DNA from: Phycisphaerae bacterium
GTDB taxonomy: Bacteria; Planctomycetota; Phycisphaerae; Sedimentisphaerales; Anaerobacaceae
DNA length: 64,000 nt
NCBI GenBank assembly: GCA_021736645.1
Contig: JAIPFM010000030.1
Span: 1-64,000 of the forward strand
Reading direction: 5' to 3'
How positions within the stretch are numbered: position 1 is the stretch's first letter; every line of letters starts with the position of its first letter. A model generated the notes under the pieces. That model worked only from the letters and a program-made list of their open reading frames with translations, was not told where the DNA came from and ran no database searches. Positions 51,058 through 59,646 of this stretch are shown one piece after another. A program made the position numbers and the translations under genes.

Positions 51058-51555
51058 TTACTTCTTCTTGGCTTGACGTCTATGTTTATTGACAATATCA
51101 GACATCTTCTTGGGGGTGAGTTCGCCATGAATCGTGTCGTCGATCATGACCACGGGCGCCAGACCGCAGGCGCCGAGACAGCGTGCCGGCCGAAGCGTAA
51201 ACAGGCCATCGGCCGTGGTCTGGCCCATATCAATCTTGAGCTGTTGCTTGAGTGTCTCCACGATCTGCGCCGCGCCCTTGACATAGCAGGCAGTGCCCAG
51301 GCAGATGGCAATCCGATGCTGGCCCTGGGGCGTCAGGTTAAAGTAATGGTAAAACGTGGCCACGCCCCAGATGTGGGCCGTGGGGATATTCATATCAACA
51401 GAAATGATGTTAATAATGTCTTCAGGCAGGTAGCCATACAGGGCCTGTGTCTTGTGCAATACAGCGATCAGATAGGAGTCGCTGTATGGCTTCTGCATCA
51501 CCTGGTCGATGGTCTGCTTGAGTTGATCCAATTTAGGGTCGTCTTTTGTCAACAT
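51058..51555 (-). CDS. hydC: NuoE/HydC-like [2Fe-2S] subunit of the hydrogenase
   Basis: 165 residues. Thioredoxin-like NuoE fold with the N-terminal helical part (YLIAVLHKTQALYGYLPEDI, IWGVATFYHYFNL) and cluster ligands in ICLGTACYVKG and RPARCLGACGLAPVVMID, the four Cys arranged as in NuoE, HydC and HndA. It hands electrons between the flavin subunit and the hydrogenase core. Here it is placed after hydG instead of next to hydB. A Lys-rich C-terminal tail ends the protein. Confidence 0.9.
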   Translation of the reverse strand: MLTKDDPKLDQLKQTIDQVMQKPYSDSYLIAVLHKTQALYGYLPEDIINIISVDMNIPTAHIWGVATFYHYFNLTPQGQHRIAICLGTACYVKGAAQIVETLKQQLKIDMGQTTADGLFTLRPARCLGACGLAPVVMIDDTIHGELTPKKMSDIVNKHRRQAKKK

Positions 51556-51584: not shown

Positions 51585-53108
51585 TTAGAAAAAGAGGTCA
51601 CGCTCTCCGTCCTGTGTTTTTTGGTAATACGTCATGAAATATTCATAGACGTCAGGCAGGGTCTGTCGAATCAGCTCGATCTCCTTGGCAATGACCTTTT
51701 CACCCGCGGCCCGGGTCTCGGGCGAGGCAAAATCATCGAGCCATTCCCTGTAGGTGATCACGGCATTGAGCTTGCACAGATTGCCTTCCTTGCCGCACTT
51801 GAGCATTTCCATGATACGACTGCCCGTGCGTCCGCATCGATAGCCCGCCGTGCAAAACGAGGTAATAAACCCGGCTTCAGCCAGTTCACGAATCACCGCA
51901 TCCAGGCTCCGGGTGTCACCCAGCATGAACTGCTGAGTCTGTGCGTCCTGGTTCTGTCCGACACGATCAGACCTGTCATAACTGCACAGACCGATCCGGC
52001 TGGACGCGTCCATCTGCGTGCAGCCGAGAGGCAGGATCTGACGTCGCACCTCGGCGGTTTCACGCGCCGTCAGGATCATGCCGGTATGCGGCACAGCCAG
52101 GCGAATCACGGTCACCAGTTGCCGGAACGACTCATCATCCACCTTCCAGTCGGTCTGCTTGACAAACGGCGTATTGGGCACGTCTTCCATGCGGGGGAAT
52201 GAAATCGTGTGGGGCCCCACGCCAAAACGCTGTTCCAGTTCATTGGCGTGGGCGATCAGACCCATCACTTCAAAACGCCAGTCATACAGACCAAACAGGG
52301 CCCCGATACCCACGTCGTCCACGCCCGCCTCCATGGCCCGGTGCATGCTGTACAGGCGCCACAGATAGTGGCCCTTGAGGGTATGGCTGGGGTGCAGACG
52401 GGCATAGGTGGCCCGGTGGTACGTCTCCTGGAACACCTGAAACGTGCCGATGCCGACTTCCTTGAGACGCTTGAGTTCCTCGATCTGCAGCGGCGGCGCA
52501 TTGACATTGCAGCGGTGAATCTGGGACCAGGTCCCGCGCCGCGTTTCGACGCGCACGTCCCCGATGGCCTTGAGCGAGTCGATCATGTACTGAACATCCA
52601 TGCGGGGATGTTCGCCATACACGACAATCAACCGCTTGTGTCCGATCTTGCCGGTCAGTACTTCGGTTTCCCGGCGAACCTGATCGAGTGACAGGACGCT
52701 TCGTTCCAATTGGGTATTGGAGCATCGAAATCCGCAGTACGCACATTCGTTCACACACAGATTGCCCAGATACAGCGGTGCAAATGTGACAATGCGGTTG
52801 TCGTAGACCTGCTGCTTGACCTGCCCGGCCACGGCTTCCATACGGGCCCTCAATGCCGGGTCCGTGACATTGAGCAGGATCGCGGTTTCTTCCAGGGTCA
52901 GGGTCTGAATGGCCAGGGATTTCTGGAGTATGGCTTCCACCTGGGCGGGATCGGGATTCTTTTGAGCACGCAGGGTATGAACGATCCTGGCCTCGTTGAG
53001 AAACGACTGACCGTGGTTCAAATAGCGTGTGATCTCATCGTCCCGAATGCGTGACTTCGCCCAGGCGTTGATCTCTTTATGTGGCGTGATAGGGCTCATG
53101 GTGTCCAT
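51585..53108 (-). CDS. hydG: HydG-type radical SAM tyrosine lyase, [FeFe] hydrogenase maturase
   Basis: 507 residues. The radical-SAM cluster motif is Cys118-x3-Cys122-x2-Cys125 (NLCVNECAYCGF), followed by a HydG/ThiH-type barrel (VVYGEHPRMDVQYM, ARLHPSHTLKGHYLWRLYSMH, DDVGIGALFGLYDW). HydG splits tyrosine to CO and cyanide for the H-cluster. The C-terminal auxiliary-cluster motif, Cx2Cx22C in the HydGs I remember, reads C419-T-A-G422-YRCGRTG...C445: the middle Cys is Gly, while extra Cys occur at 425 and 438. ThiH lacks this C-terminal motif, so HydG is still the better name. It lies 16 bp after hydA. Confidence 0.85.
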   Translation of the reverse strand: MDTMSPITPHKEINAWAKSRIRDDEITRYLNHGQSFLNEARIVHTLRAQKNPDPAQVEAILQKSLAIQTLTLEETAILLNVTDPALRARMEAVAGQVKQQVYDNRIVTFAPLYLGNLCVNECAYCGFRCSNTQLERSVLSLDQVRRETEVLTGKIGHKRLIVVYGEHPRMDVQYMIDSLKAIGDVRVETRRGTWSQIHRCNVNAPPLQIEELKRLKEVGIGTFQVFQETYHRATYARLHPSHTLKGHYLWRLYSMHRAMEAGVDDVGIGALFGLYDWRFEVMGLIAHANELEQRFGVGPHTISFPRMEDVPNTPFVKQTDWKVDDESFRQLVTVIRLAVPHTGMILTARETAEVRRQILPLGCTQMDASSRIGLCSYDRSDRVGQNQDAQTQQFMLGDTRSLDAVIRELAEAGFITSFCTAGYRCGRTGSRIMEMLKCGKEGNLCKLNAVITYREWLDDFASPETRAAGEKVIAKEIELIRQTLPDVYEYFMTYYQKTQDGERDLFF

Positions 53109-53124
53109 GATAGATTATCCATTT

Positions 53125-54897
53125 CTACTGGGTCAGTTTTCTTGAAACAATGCCCTGAGGGGACTTCTGTGCATAGCGTGTGTGCAGAAGTTCGTGTGAT
53201 TTCTCACCCAAGGGTCGACCCAGACATTCCTTATACAATCTCTGCACCTCAGGGTTATCATGGCTTCGACGGATGGTATTACCTCGATCCATACCGTACA
53301 GCGCATCCGCCCGTTGTTGAAGGCACCCTTCATCCAGGGGGATGGAGTTGACTGTGGGATAGGGTTGTCCCCCGCCCCCCACGCAGCCGCCCGGACAGGC
53401 CATGATCTCTACAAAGTGGTAGCGATCCGGCGCTTTGCGCAGGATATCAAGAAGACGCGCGCCGTTGCCAAGGCCATGGGCCACCGCCACGTTGACTGTG
53501 ATGCCGTCGATATTCAGACTGGCCTCCTTGATCCCTTTGAACCCGCGAATCGCTTCGAGTTCAATATCGATCAGGGTTTCGCCCGTGTACAATTCATACG
53601 CCGTCCTGACAGCCGCCTCCATGACGCCGCCCGTGACGCCGAAGATCGGCGCTGCACCGGAGGACAGACCCAGCGGCTTGTCAAAGGGCTCGCCCTCCAG
53701 GTGGATGAAATCAATGCCCGCGGATTTGATCATCCACGCCAGTTCGCGGGTCGTGATCACGAGATCCGTAGACCGCCTGCCGTGGAGGGTGTGCTCAGGC
53801 CTGACCGCCTCGGACTTCTTGGCCGTGCAGGGCATCACAGACACCACAAACAACCTGGCCGGATCTATGTCCGCTTTCTCGGCAAAATGCGTCTTGATCA
53901 CATTGCTCATCATGCTCATGGGTGACTTGCAGGAGGACACGTGGTCCATGAAGTCAGGATGGAAGGTCTCGAGCGCATTGATCCATCCCGGGCAACAGGA
54001 TGTGATCATGGGCAGCTTGCCCCTGCCCTGCAGGCGCTCCAAAAACTCACTGCCCTCTTCCATGATGGTCAGGTCCGCGGCAAACTGGGTGTCAAACACG
54101 TAGTCGAATCCGAGACGACGCAGGGCCGCCGCGGTTTGATGTTCCATGTTCTGTCCGGGCTCCAGTCCAAAGGACTCTCCAATGGCGGCGCGCACGGCCG
54201 GGGCGATGTGGACCACCTTGATCAGAGCGGGATCATTGAGGGTCTCAAAGAGTGCCTGGGTATCGTTGTGCTCGGTGAAGGCTGCCGTGGGACAGACATT
54301 GATGCACTGGCCGCACTGGCTGCACACACTCTCACCAAACGGCATGTTGTACGCGGGCATGACCACGGTATTGAACCCGCGGTTCGCATAGCCCAGGGCA
54401 TGGATGCCTTGAATCTCTTCGCACATACGCACGCATCGTCCGCACAGAATGCATTTTTCAGGATCACGCACCACCGAAGGCGAGGACAGGTCCTGCTCGA
54501 AGGTCTTGCGCTCGCCCTCAAAATGCCGTTTTCGAATGCCCATGGCAAAGGCCAGACGCTGCAATTCGCAGTTGCTGTCCCGTTCACAGGTGTGGCAGTC
54601 CTGGGGGTGGTTGTCCACGAGCAGTTCCACAATGTCGCGACGTGCCCGACGAATCGCCGTGGAGTTGGTGGTGACCACCATGCCCTCGGTCACAGGGTAG
54701 GCACAGGATGCCACATAGTTTTTCATTCCCGCCACTTCCACGATACACACACGGCAGGCGCCCTCGATGGAGAGATCCGGGTGATAACACAAACGGGGTA
54801 TATGGTAACCGCAGACATCCGCTGCCTGCATCAGGGTCTGCCCAGCCTGAACCTCATAGGCCTTCCCATTAATGGTAATGTTGACTGTCTCTTTCAT
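53125..54897 (-). CDS. hydA: [FeFe] hydrogenase catalytic subunit (HydA, group A3 type)
   Basis: 590 residues from the ATG at 54897 (10 bp after hydB). Cluster domains in order: plant-type [2Fe-2S] (Cys37, 48, 51, 65), His-Cys3 [4Fe-4S] (His97, Cys101, 104, 110), two [4Fe-4S] (Cys149-159 and 192-202). The H-cluster motifs L1 TSCCPGW (299-305), L2 MPCTAKKSEA (355-364) and L3 MACPGGCVGGGGQP (499-512) follow. A small-subunit-like tail ends it (RADALYGMD...NPEVQRLYKE). All catalytic Cys are present. It reduces protons or oxidises H2 in the cytoplasm with HydB and HydC, probably by electron bifurcation between NADH and ferredoxin. Confidence 0.96.
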   Translation of the reverse strand: MKETVNITINGKAYEVQAGQTLMQAADVCGYHIPRLCYHPDLSIEGACRVCIVEVAGMKNYVASCAYPVTEGMVVTTNSTAIRRARRDIVELLVDNHPQDCHTCERDSNCELQRLAFAMGIRKRHFEGERKTFEQDLSSPSVVRDPEKCILCGRCVRMCEEIQGIHALGYANRGFNTVVMPAYNMPFGESVCSQCGQCINVCPTAAFTEHNDTQALFETLNDPALIKVVHIAPAVRAAIGESFGLEPGQNMEHQTAAALRRLGFDYVFDTQFAADLTIMEEGSEFLERLQGRGKLPMITSCCPGWINALETFHPDFMDHVSSCKSPMSMMSNVIKTHFAEKADIDPARLFVVSVMPCTAKKSEAVRPEHTLHGRRSTDLVITTRELAWMIKSAGIDFIHLEGEPFDKPLGLSSGAAPIFGVTGGVMEAAVRTAYELYTGETLIDIELEAIRGFKGIKEASLNIDGITVNVAVAHGLGNGARLLDILRKAPDRYHFVEIMACPGGCVGGGGQPYPTVNSIPLDEGCLQQRADALYGMDRGNTIRRSHDNPEVQRLYKECLGRPLGEKSHELLHTRYAQKSPQGIVSRKLTQ

Positions 54898-54907
54898 GGT
54901 GATGATC

Positions 54908-56698
54908 CTAAACCTTGTCAATGGCATCATACTTGCAGGTCGCCAGACATAGACCGCATCGTACGCACTGGGTCTGGTCAATGGTGTGTTTCTGCTTGGT
55001 ACGTCCGGAGATCACGTTCACCGGGCAGCCCCGCTTGCAGGCGCCGCATCCCACGCAGGCATCATTGATGGCATACGCGATCAGACTGGGACAGACCTTG
55101 GCACGACACGTGTGGTCACGAATATGCTCCTCGTATTCTTCACGGAAGTTCTTGATCGTACTGAGCACAGGATTCGGCGCAGACTGCCCCAGACCGCACA
55201 GGGACGACTTCTTGATCATGTCGCCCAGGCGTTCGAGTTTTTCTATGTCCCCTGCCTGGCCCCTGCCGTCGGAGATACGCGTGAGGATTTCAAACATGCG
55301 TTTGGTGCCTTCCCGACAGGGGGTACACTTGCCGCAGGATTCACTCTGCGTGAACTCCAGGAAAAACTTGGCAATATCCACCATACAGGAATCTTCGTCG
55401 ATCACGATCATGCCCCCGGACCCCATGATGGACCCGGCCTGAGCGAGTGACTCGTAATCCACGGGGGTGTCGAGATAGTCCGCGGGCAGGCAGCCGCCTG
55501 AGGGGCCACCGGTCTGTACGGCCTTGAATGCCTTGCCATGCGGAATACCGCCACCGATGTCATAGATGATTTCACGGAGTGTGGTGCCCATGGGCACTTC
55601 AATCAGTCCCGTATTCACCACCTTGCCGGCCAGGGCAAACACCTTGGTGCCCTGGCTCTTTTCCGTGCCGATGGAGCTGAACCACTGGCCGCCGTCCACA
55701 ATGACCACCGGAATATTGGCCCAGGTCTCCACGTTGTTGATCAGCGTGGGCTTACCGAACAGACCGGACACCGAAGGATACGGCGGTCTGGGACGCGGCA
55801 TGCCGCGAGCCCCTTCGATGGATTGAATCAGTGCCGTCTCCTCGCCGCACACAAAGGCGCCTGCCCCGAGCCGGATCTCCAGCTCAAAACAGAAGTCCGT
55901 GCCCAGGATATGGTCCCCCAGCAGGCCGTGGTCTCGGGCCTGGGCCATGGCCCTTTCCAGACGCTCGATGGCCAGGGGGTATTCGGCCCGTATATAGACG
56001 ATGCCCTGCGCTGCACCGACAGCATACCCCCCGATCATCATGCCCTCCAGTACCGTGTGGGGATCACCTTCGATGGCACTGCGGTCCATGAACGCACCGG
56101 GATCGCCCTCGTCGGCATTACAGATCACATATTTTTCGCCGCTCACCTGATCCGCAGTGATCTGCCACTTCAAACCCGTGGGAAATCCTGCGCCGCCGCG
56201 TCCCCGGAGACCGGAGGTCTTGAGTTCGTCGATCACCTGCTGCGGCGTCATGTCTGTCAGGGCCTTGGCCAGGGCCTCGTAACCCCGCAGGGCCAGATAA
56301 TCATCAATATTCTCAGGGTCAATGATCCCGCAGTTTCTCAAGGCAATGCGCATCTGCTTGCCAAAAAAGTTGACATCTCCAAAGATGCGAAAGAAACGGT
56401 TGAACAGGTGATCCTCTTCGATCACAAGCCTGGCAATGGGTCGCCCCTGGATCAGGTGTTCTCGTACAATCTGGGCCACGTCGGGTTCCTCGAGTCCCCC
56501 GTACAGGGTATACCCGGGATTCACCACCATGATCGGGCCCTTGTGACACATCCCCAGACAACCCGATACATTGATCTTCACGCGATCCTTGAGGCCATGC
56601 CTTTCAAGCTGCTCATCCAGAAGGGTGCTCAAGTGTCTCATGCCTTGCTGCATGCAGGAGGTGCCTTGACACAGGGTGATCGCATAACTCGTATCCAC
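54908..56698 (-). CDS. hydB: NuoF-like flavin subunit of the hydrogenase (HydB)
   Basis: 596 residues from a GTG with AAAGGG nine bases upstream. An N-terminal thioredoxin-like [2Fe-2S] part (Cys10, 15, 47, 51) leads. Then come the NuoF FMN/NADH core (LRGRGGAGFPTGLKWQ, CNADEGDPGAFMDR, EETALIQSIEG), its [4Fe-4S] (SCGKCTPCREGTKRM), and a C-terminal 2x[4Fe-4S] ferredoxin (CVGCGACKRGCPV, CVRCGLCLATCKYDA). This is the architecture of bifurcating hydrogenase HydB/HndC. It binds NAD(H) and is the likely bifurcation site. It overlaps no neighbour. Confidence 0.95.
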   Translation of the reverse strand: MDTSYAITLCQGTSCMQQGMRHLSTLLDEQLERHGLKDRVKINVSGCLGMCHKGPIMVVNPGYTLYGGLEEPDVAQIVREHLIQGRPIARLVIEEDHLFNRFFRIFGDVNFFGKQMRIALRNCGIIDPENIDDYLALRGYEALAKALTDMTPQQVIDELKTSGLRGRGGAGFPTGLKWQITADQVSGEKYVICNADEGDPGAFMDRSAIEGDPHTVLEGMMIGGYAVGAAQGIVYIRAEYPLAIERLERAMAQARDHGLLGDHILGTDFCFELEIRLGAGAFVCGEETALIQSIEGARGMPRPRPPYPSVSGLFGKPTLINNVETWANIPVVIVDGGQWFSSIGTEKSQGTKVFALAGKVVNTGLIEVPMGTTLREIIYDIGGGIPHGKAFKAVQTGGPSGGCLPADYLDTPVDYESLAQAGSIMGSGGMIVIDEDSCMVDIAKFFLEFTQSESCGKCTPCREGTKRMFEILTRISDGRGQAGDIEKLERLGDMIKKSSLCGLGQSAPNPVLSTIKNFREEYEEHIRDHTCRAKVCPSLIAYAINDACVGCGACKRGCPVNVISGRTKQKHTIDQTQCVRCGLCLATCKYDAIDKV

Positions 56699-56712: not shown

Positions 56713-57069
56713 CTAGTCAATGACCCATTCGCTGATGACCTGGCCGTTCTTGAGATGCCTGTCCACAATCTCCTGGGCCCTGGCCGGATCGATCTTACCG
56801 TAGCGCACCGGCAGCTTGCCGACTTCAACCACCTCCACCGTGGGCTCCAGATTGCACCGTCCGGCACACCCCTTCTGACTGAGAAAGACATCGGTCAGTC
56901 CGCCCCGTGTCACGGCCTCGCGAAAGACTGTCATCACCGCTTTGGACCCGGCAGCCATTTCACAGGTGGCCATACCGACATACACCCGCTTGCTGGAAAG
57001 AAAGCCCTTGCTGACGATCCGGCCCACGGCCTCAGCGCGCTTCTTTCTGATCACCTCCAATGCATTCGC
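56713..57069 (-). CDS. Thioredoxin-like [2Fe-2S] protein (HndB-like) of the hydrogenase operon
   Basis: 118 residues from a GTG at 57069, chosen because AGGAG sits seven bases upstream within the last codons of the kinase gene. Earlier in-frame starts overlap that gene further. Ligands: YVGMATCEMAAG (first Cys), then VFLSQKGCAGRCNLEPTVEV, a thioredoxin-like ferredoxin pattern. Similar small subunits accompany HydABC-type complexes (HndB). The spacing between the first Cys and CAGRC fits a single [2Fe-2S]; only three clear ligand Cys are seen, so the fourth is uncertain. Confidence 0.85.
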   Translation of the reverse strand, partial: ANALEVIRKKRAEAVGRIVSKGFLSSKRVYVGMATCEMAAGSKAVMTVFREAVTRGGLTDVFLSQKGCAGRCNLEPTVEVVEVGKLPVRYGKIDPARAQEIVDRHLKNGQVISEWVID

Positions 57070-57073
57070 CACG

Positions 57074-58918
57074 TCACGCTCCTGTTTCAATCTCAAATAG
57101 AAAGGAATTGCCATGGTCCCGGGCCTGTACCCAGATCTTTCCACCATGGGCTTCTATGATTTGCCGCGTAATGTAGAGACCCAGACCTGTCCCCTTTTCG
57201 CGTCGTGTTTCCTCCGTCGCCAGACGCGAAAACTTCTGGAACAGTCTGGCCTTCTGCTCATCGGGGATGGGCGTGGAATCGTTGTACACGTCAATGCGAA
57301 CTGTCTTGCCCTCACAGACCGAGCTGAGTGTCACGTGCCCCTCGGGCTGACAGTATTTGATGGCATTACTGACCAGGTTGTTGGCCACGATCTGCAGGAG
57401 ATCCAGATCACCCTGCACCACCAGCGTCTTGTCCATCGCACACTCGATCACCAGGGATCGACGCTCTGCCATCACGGCCAAAGAATCGAATGACACCTTG
57501 AAGACATCGTCCCAAAGCCTGACCTCGGTCTTGTTGACGCTGAGCTCGCCGCGTTCAATACGACCCAGGTTCAGAAACTTACGCACAATATTGGTCAGGT
57601 AATCCAGGTTGCGTGCCACGGAATCAATGGCCTTGCGCTGCTTGAAATTGACCATGCCCAAAAAACCGTCTCGCACTGAGTAGGTATTCATGACCGCTGA
57701 GGCCAGCATGCCTTTGAGTTCGTGGGCCACAAAGCTGATCAGATGCACGTAGCTCTGGTTGGCTTCCACCAGTTTGTCATTGGCGATCTGCAGAGACTCT
57801 TCACGTTCCTTGAGCTTGGCAGACATACCATTAAAGGCTCGGGCCAGGGTGTTGAGCTCCTCCACCTGGGTCCGCGCGTCCACTTCATACCCCAATTGTC
57901 CTTCTGACAGTCTGGCGGTGGCCTTGACAATTTCGGTCAGGGGCCTGGAGATCCCCATGGCCAGGACCATGGACAGCACGGCCGCCAGGAGCGCACATCC
58001 AGCCACGATGGTCAGAAACATGATCAGGATATTGCCGGCCATATCATTGTAGGGTTGTTCCAAAATCCCCACATACAGGATACCCACGATATTACCTTGA
58101 ATATTTTCGAGGGGTTCATAGGCCGTTTTATACCAGTCCGTGACCACAAAGGCCCGGTCATGCCAGGTCCGGCCCTGCTCCACCACAGCCGTATACACCT
58201 CATCGGACACACGCGTGCCCACGGCCCGTTTGCCCTGTTCATCCAGCACATTGGTGGCCACGCGCACATCATCCTGAAACAGGGTGACCGTCCCCATGGG
58301 TGTCCCCTTGTAAAGGTCGCCGCCAAACACAAGGGATTTGATCCGATCCACAAATTCAAAATCCAGGTTGATCACACGTCCGCCAAACAGAACCTTCAAA
58401 ACCTGGCCCTGGTCAGACAGCACAGGTATGGCGTATTCCTTGACCAGTACCTGCTTGAGTTCAGTCTTGTCTGTGGGCCGGGCCATCGGTGTGGGTTTGA
58501 CCTTGATATGACGCGCCTCTGCCAGGGCAGAATCATATGTTTCCAACTCGCTCAGCGCCATCAAGCGGGTGCCGCCAACCCCCTGCTTGCGCCTATAAGC
58601 GGCCAGTACAATCTCATTGGTGCACAGGGTCAACTGGCTGACAGGCACGACCTCAGCATAGTCGAGGTTGGCTTTGCTGATGAATTGGCTGCTGATCTCA
58701 GTACTGAGAACCCACTCCAAAGATTCCCCAATACGCCGTATTTCCTCGTCATAGAACTTGCGGGCCGTCTGCAGCTTCTTGACGACCTCGGCCTCAGCCT
58801 GATCAATAATGTCCCGCTTGATCACGAAGTATCCCAAAAAAGCGATCATGGTCGCAACAGACACCACCACCAAGCCAAATGAAATCAAGATACGTGATTT
58901 TAACGACTTCGGCGTCAT
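57074..58918 (-). CDS. Transmembrane sensor histidine kinase of the hydrogenase operon
   Basis: 614 residues. TM1 at 10-33, a large periplasmic Cache-like domain (about 34-294; RVINLDFEFVDRIKSLVFGG and VTLFQDDVRVATNV are typical), TM2 at 295-321 and HAMP (322-375). The phospho-acceptor is His399 in SFVAHELKGML; the HATPase has NNLVSNAIKYC and EKGTGLGLYITRQIIEAHGGKI. It overlaps rex by four bases and the next gene's ribosome site lies in its last codons. A kinase gene in this position (before the 2Fe-2S/NuoF/HydA genes) is also known to me from clostridial hydrogenase operons. Ligand is unknown. Confidence 0.9.
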   Translation of the reverse strand: MTPKSLKSRILISFGLVVVSVATMIAFLGYFVIKRDIIDQAEAEVVKKLQTARKFYDEEIRRIGESLEWVLSTEISSQFISKANLDYAEVVPVSQLTLCTNEIVLAAYRRKQGVGGTRLMALSELETYDSALAEARHIKVKPTPMARPTDKTELKQVLVKEYAIPVLSDQGQVLKVLFGGRVINLDFEFVDRIKSLVFGGDLYKGTPMGTVTLFQDDVRVATNVLDEQGKRAVGTRVSDEVYTAVVEQGRTWHDRAFVVTDWYKTAYEPLENIQGNIVGILYVGILEQPYNDMAGNILIMFLTIVAGCALLAAVLSMVLAMGISRPLTEIVKATARLSEGQLGYEVDARTQVEELNTLARAFNGMSAKLKEREESLQIANDKLVEANQSYVHLISFVAHELKGMLASAVMNTYSVRDGFLGMVNFKQRKAIDSVARNLDYLTNIVRKFLNLGRIERGELSVNKTEVRLWDDVFKVSFDSLAVMAERRSLVIECAMDKTLVVQGDLDLLQIVANNLVSNAIKYCQPEGHVTLSSVCEGKTVRIDVYNDSTPIPDEQKARLFQKFSRLATEETRREKGTGLGLYITRQIIEAHGGKIWVQARDHGNSFLFEIETGA

Positions 58919-59550
58919 TGTTGAGACTCTTGGGTTTTTTCCGAGGCATTTACAAAGTAAATGATGTTTTCCAGCTCAGTGACCAGGTTGATATTGTTGA
59001 CCACGCACCCCTCAGGTCCCTTCACACAAATCGGCGCAAAATTTAGCACGCCACGAATCCCGGCCGGGATCATCAGCTCCAACACCTGTTGCGCAGCGAA
59101 ATCAGGCACAGTAATGATACCAAATTCGATCTCATGCCTTCGAATGACCTCACTGAGTTCCTCAAGTGGACAAATCGGTACGGGGCCCTCTTTATCCCAT
59201 TTATTAGCATCAATATCAAAGCCCGCAACAATTTTAATGCCGCTTCGCTCAAATCCTGCGTATTGAACCAAGGCCTTACCTAAATTCCCCATACCTACCA
59301 ATATAAACTTCTGAATCTTGTCCTTGCCGAGGATCTTGTTAAGCTGTTCAATCAACTCATCTACTTTGTATCCGCCCCGGCGATTTCCGGTAATACCAAA
59401 AATGGAAAAATCCTTTCGCACCTGTGTCGCAGTCACGCCGGCAGCATCTGCCAGGTTCTCAGAGAATACCCTCACAAAGTTCAAGGTTCTCAGTCTTAAC
59501 AGGGCATTTTTGTACCGCGAAAGACGTATTACACAGCTTCTATTAGTCAT
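58915..59550 (-). CDS. rex: Redox-sensing repressor Rex
   Basis: 211 residues from the ATG at 59550, with GGAAGG seven bases upstream. An N-terminal winged helix (LSRYKNALLRLR...ATQVRKDFSIFGITGNRRGGY) and a Rossmann NAD(H) domain (KFILVGMGNLGKALVQYAGF, AGFDIDANK, IITVPDFAAQQVLELMIPAGI, NFAPICVKGPEG) match Rex throughout. The C-terminal helix is longer than usual by about ten Gln/Glu/Ser residues. Rex leaves DNA when NADH rises. It leads the hydrogenase operon and should repress its own promoter. Confidence 0.95.
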   Translation of the reverse strand: MTNRSCVIRLSRYKNALLRLRTLNFVRVFSENLADAAGVTATQVRKDFSIFGITGNRRGGYKVDELIEQLNKILGKDKIQKFILVGMGNLGKALVQYAGFERSGIKIVAGFDIDANKWDKEGPVPICPLEELSEVIRRHEIEFGIITVPDFAAQQVLELMIPAGIRGVLNFAPICVKGPEGCVVNNINLVTELENIIYFVNASEKTQESQQ

Positions 59551-59646
59551 ATCAAGACCTTCCAAACAGTTACGAAAACACATCCCTTATATTTTGTAAG
59601 GAGATTTAAGACGTCCTTCTTATCACAGCTACACATATACCTGACA

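Follow-up and report, generated by a model that had tools for sequence, protein, structure and literature searches.

A planctomycete HydG with a probable CX5CX19C auxiliary-cluster motif belongs to a widespread subtype of the H-cluster maturase

The window, a stretch of 64,000 nucleotides from a Phycisphaerae bacterium, carries hydG together with the genes of an [FeFe]-hydrogenase:

51058..51555, minus strand: hydC (NuoE-like), found by profile search
51585..53108, minus strand: hydG, radical SAM tyrosine lyase and H-cluster maturase of the CX5CX19C type, assigned by TIGR03955, alignment and fold
53125..54981, minus strand: hydA, catalytic subunit of a group A6 [FeFe]-hydrogenase (NF040763, 827.9 bits against a cut-off of 765)
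54908..56698, minus strand: hydB (NuoF-like) of the trimeric NADH-linked hydrogenase, found by profile search

Directly upstream of hydB (56713-59583, minus strand) lie genes for a thioredoxin-like [2Fe-2S] ferredoxin, a sensor histidine kinase and the Rex redox repressor, which suggests redox control of the hydrogenase cluster. HydG is known to cleave tyrosine, yielding CO and CN, and to make an Fe synthon (PMC6212873). The hydG ORF encodes 507 aa that scored 431.5 bits in a profile search with the equivalog TIGR03955, above the curated cut-off of 312.15. The match spans positions 7-469 of the 470 in the profile, showing that the C-terminal auxiliary-cluster domain, which is absent from ThiH, is present. 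The AlphaFold model of the protein (mean pLDDT 86.9) superposed on the Thermoanaerobacter italicus HydG structure 4wcx with a TM of 0.86 and an rmsd of 1.8, at 42% identity over 473 columns.

The auxiliary-cluster motif is encoded by TGC ACG GCG GGC TAT CGA TGC, that is C419-T-A-G422-Y-R-C425, followed by C445. This confirms the earlier note, made from the sequence alone, which had read the first four codons in the same way and reported Gly in place of the middle cysteine of the CX2CX22C motif. With Gly (GGC) at 422 the protein falls outside the canonical motif, even though the gap from G422 to C445 is X22. Its cysteines are spaced CX5CX19C, and it has the Cys419, Cys425 and Cys445 plus non-cysteine residue at 422 that characterize the subtype of that name.

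We scanned one genome per species with the window HydG as query and took the best 80 loci (54-70% identity) as the nearest-HydG sample; with the window HydG these make up an 81-member clade. The comparison set consisted of 30 Cys422-type planctomycete HydGs from the top of a search of the phylum, and a broader alignment comprised 246 HydG rows. The relevant codons and their conservation are as follows:

52734..52757, minus strand: radical-SAM CX3CX2C motif, C118-X3-C122-X2-C125, intact, and invariant in the Gly422 clade and the Cys422-type planctomycete HydGs
52248..52250, minus strand: His287, conserved, presumed dangler-iron ligand; His in 244/246 rows
51852..51854, minus strand: Cys419, first auxiliary-cluster ligand; Cys in 246/246 aligned rows
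51843..51845, minus strand: Gly422, replacing the canonical middle Cys; Gly in 81/81 clade members, Cys in 30/30 Cys422-type planctomycete HydGs
51834..51836, minus strand: Cys425, proposed replacement ligand; Cys in 81/81 clade members and 0/30 Cys422-type planctomycete HydGs
51795..51797, minus strand: Cys438, non-conserved, no general ligand; Cys in 13/81 clade members
51774..51776, minus strand: Cys445, last auxiliary-cluster ligand; Cys in 246/246 aligned rows

We take His287 to be the equivalent of T. italicus HydG His265, a dangler-iron ligand. The three radical-SAM cysteines, like Cys419 and Cys445, did not vary in either the clade or the 30 Cys422-type HydGs. Cys438 is indeed an extra cysteine of the window HydG, as had been noted, and its scarcity in the clade led us to reject it as a substitute ligand. 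A further one, Cys375 (51984-51986), was unique to the window HydG here, the residue being Gly in 80/81 clade members and in all 30 Cys422-type planctomycete HydGs.

The best 80 loci include representatives of Planctomycetota, Omnitrophota, Deltaproteobacteria, Spirochaetes, WOR-3 and Thermotogae, and also of Caldanaerobacter, Neomarinimicrobiota, Sanguibacteroides and Archaeoglobaceae, and every one of them kept C-T-A/S-G-Y-R-C-G-R-T-G and the last cysteine. A sequencing or assembly error at 51843-51845, which the earlier note had named as a possible source of the Gly codon, thus has a negligible probability: we found no support for it, and it is excluded in practice because Gly422 and Cys425 are shared by all 80 nearest relatives, which come from independent assemblies. 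In the planctomycete HydGs, whose alignment had been proposed earlier as a check, the Gly type was a minority of the sample (the window and four others versus 61 with Cys422). Within the window's order the type differs between families, being Gly in f3 and Cys in f4. Across the 246 rows, Cys422 without Cys425 was found in 135, Gly422 with Cys425 in 101 (about 12 of these being truncated duplicates of genes that the count includes anyway), Asp422 with Cys425 in four and Gly422 with Ala425 in six, so that position 425 is Cys in 105 of the 111 rows that lack Cys422. A tree of 56 rows (motif columns left out, LG+G4 without mixture) required seven changes at position 422 and four at 425, and the independent co-changes of the two were few, below the number for a test. 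On this tree the window HydG fell inside a starred clade that has no Cys422 member.

Nor is the spacing itself new. In a 2022 survey of acetogenic clostridia (PMC9431212), a C-x(5)-C-x(19)-C motif "supposed to coordinate the C-terminal Fe-S cluster" is given for the Clostridium autoethanogenum HydG, and the CX5CX19C variant was therefore already known. The rarity implied by the earlier note is contradicted by this record, by the many phyla over which the type extends and by its usual status as the sole HydG. That note had also reasoned that wide occurrence of Gly in active HydGs would speak against an anomaly, and as regards the anomaly this is largely what we found. Rather than a defect, the window HydG shows a variant that occurs widely and had been noted before.

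The Gly422 type, conserved in its pattern, is also usually present in single copy and with its genomic partners. It was the sole HydG above the cut-off in 41 of 42 genomes checked that carry it, the remaining one having a second, canonical copy (L128), and HydF was above the cut-off in 37 of the 42. The window's assembly, which is 88% complete, contained one HydG, one HydE and two group A HydA, one of them on the window contig. The second hydG that the earlier note had suggested looking for was not found in it, the next HydG-profile matches, on contigs C107 and C115, being a ThiH-like protein and HydE. The second group A [FeFe]-hydrogenase gene (G000:C115:8863-14332) lies a few kb from hydE, apart from the hydABC-hydG cluster. 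No HydF scored above 91 bits in this assembly, and the two nearest relatives have HydF-like proteins slightly below the cut-off (at 301 and 298 bits; loci G392:C46:233570-234766 and G393:C109:31506-32702) that are possibly divergent HydF. Considering these proteins and the incompleteness of the assembly, the absence of hydF is not established. It could be argued that the window HydG is degenerate or has no H-cluster function and that another hydG is in use, since Gly replaces a cysteine of a motif to which an essential role is ascribed in C. acetobutylicum HydG (according to PMC9431212, citing King et al. 2006). However, this HydG is the only one in an assembly with two group A HydA, 80 relatives conserve it and the type stands alone in nearly all the genomes checked, and we regard such a loss of function as very improbable and nearly refuted. 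The same survey also states, citing a 2012 review, that HydG ligand sequences can vary.

We believe, with a probability of about 0.78, that the window HydG functions as an ordinary HydG and represents a widespread subtype, in which Cys419, Cys425 and Cys445 are the ligands of the auxiliary cluster. Tyrosine would be cleaved at the N-terminal radical-SAM cluster, and the Fe(CO)2(CN) unit would be built on the C-terminal auxiliary cluster with its labile iron. The ligands of the latter would be spaced CX5CX19C instead of CX2CX22C, the middle one having shifted three residues onward, from 422 to 425, and position 422 would thus be freed for Gly here and for Asp in a sister group. The enzyme is probably active, and the alignment points to Cys425 as the most likely replacement ligand of the cluster. 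Of the two explanations offered in the earlier note, a takeover by Cys425 is the best supported, by its presence throughout the clade and its absence from the Cys422-type planctomycete HydGs, and a cluster "bound differently" is right only insofar as one ligand would have shifted. The modelling proposed there reproduced the HydG fold but was uninformative on Cys425: loop 421-428 has pLDDT <50 and hence lends no geometric support to Cys425 as a ligand. AlphaFold predicts a helix at 422-438, also with pLDDT <50, and if this helix is real, residues 422 and 425 would be one helical turn apart.

It is also conceivable, although unlikely, that Cys425 has some other role and that the cluster sits on Cys419, Cys445 and a non-cysteine or small-molecule ligand. 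Such an arrangement is suggested by six Bacillota HydGs reading CTAGYRAGRTG (L261, L269, L272, L286, L291 and L304, in genomes G476, G589, G494, G622, G731 and G634), which have Gly422 and Ala425 and thus only two C-terminal motif cysteines, so that the third Cys may be dispensable. In five of these genomes (G494, G589, G622, G731 and G634) this is the sole HydG and genes for HydE-like, HydF and HydA proteins are present; G476 has another HydG copy. Against a non-ligand role stand the invariance of Cys425 in the clade and its presence in nearly all rows without Cys422. The Gly422 and Ala425 HydGs occupy two places on the tree, and the three that we inspected shared no new cysteine; Cys410, considered as a compensating residue, was rejected on finding it in Cys422 relatives too. 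Judging from these sequences, either another ligand serves in these proteins or two cysteines suffice. That the middle ligand of HydG is evolutionarily loose, moving between 422 and 425 and missing in some Bacillota, and that a HydG with two motif cysteines supports hydrogenase maturation, we hold tentatively, at a little under even odds.

With regard to experimental evidence, our literature search yielded no paper on Caldanaerobacter HydG, and a synthetic operon with Caldanaerobacter maturases was designed in a study in which these were not expressed (PMC4694547). We found no spectroscopy of the CX5CX19C subtype in the accessible literature. Primers for cloning the Syntrophomonas wolfei hyd1ABC and hydE-ORF-hydG segments are given in a published study (PMC5626996). 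Four of these cloning-primer ends exactly matched genome G448, a single contig of 2,936,195 bases carrying an Asp422 and Cys425 HydG. The HydG amplified from it by these primers has 487 aa and reads CTADYRCGRTGGCFMGIAKKGKIHNLC; it contains CTADYRC...C, which fits CX5CX19C, and no CX2CX22C, and is the sole HydG above the cut-off in G448. E. coli is not known to possess a HydG. In that study, co-expression of S. wolfei HydG, HydE and HydF in E. coli allowed Hyd1ABC to be purified with an activity of 571 U/mg for H2 to methyl viologen (PMC5626996); the accessible part of the paper contains no discussion of the motif. By our primer match to this published experiment, an Asp422/Cys425 HydG matures an active [FeFe]-hydrogenase, and Cys at 422 is therefore dispensable. 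The result says nothing on which residue ligates the cluster.

CX2CX22C enzymes are the basis of models of dangler-iron binding by HydG. The requirements of the auxiliary cluster could be probed with variants that nature already provides: a large group in which the ligand is probably shifted, with one relative that demonstrably works, and a few HydGs without a third motif cysteine. In addition, annotating HydG by the CX2CX22C motif overlooks true HydGs. The two-cysteine HydG of some Bacillota, outside the window, is the lead of higher interest.

Compared with known systems, the window HydG shares with C. autoethanogenum HydG (CLAU_RS03260; PMC9431212) the same cysteine spacing, a likeness taken from the published motif, unaligned here, and described for one species by motif inspection. 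Like S. wolfei HydG (SWOL_RS05190; PMC5626996), it has CX5CX19C, lacks CX2CX22C and accompanies an NADH-linked HydABC, but it has Gly and not Asp at 422. The T. italicus enzyme (4wcx) has the same fold, outer cysteines and conserved His, and Carboxydothermus hydrogenoformans HydG (4rtb) the same fold and outer cysteines; unlike the window HydG, both carry the canonical CX2CX22C motif, as CTACYRM and CTACYRK, respectively.
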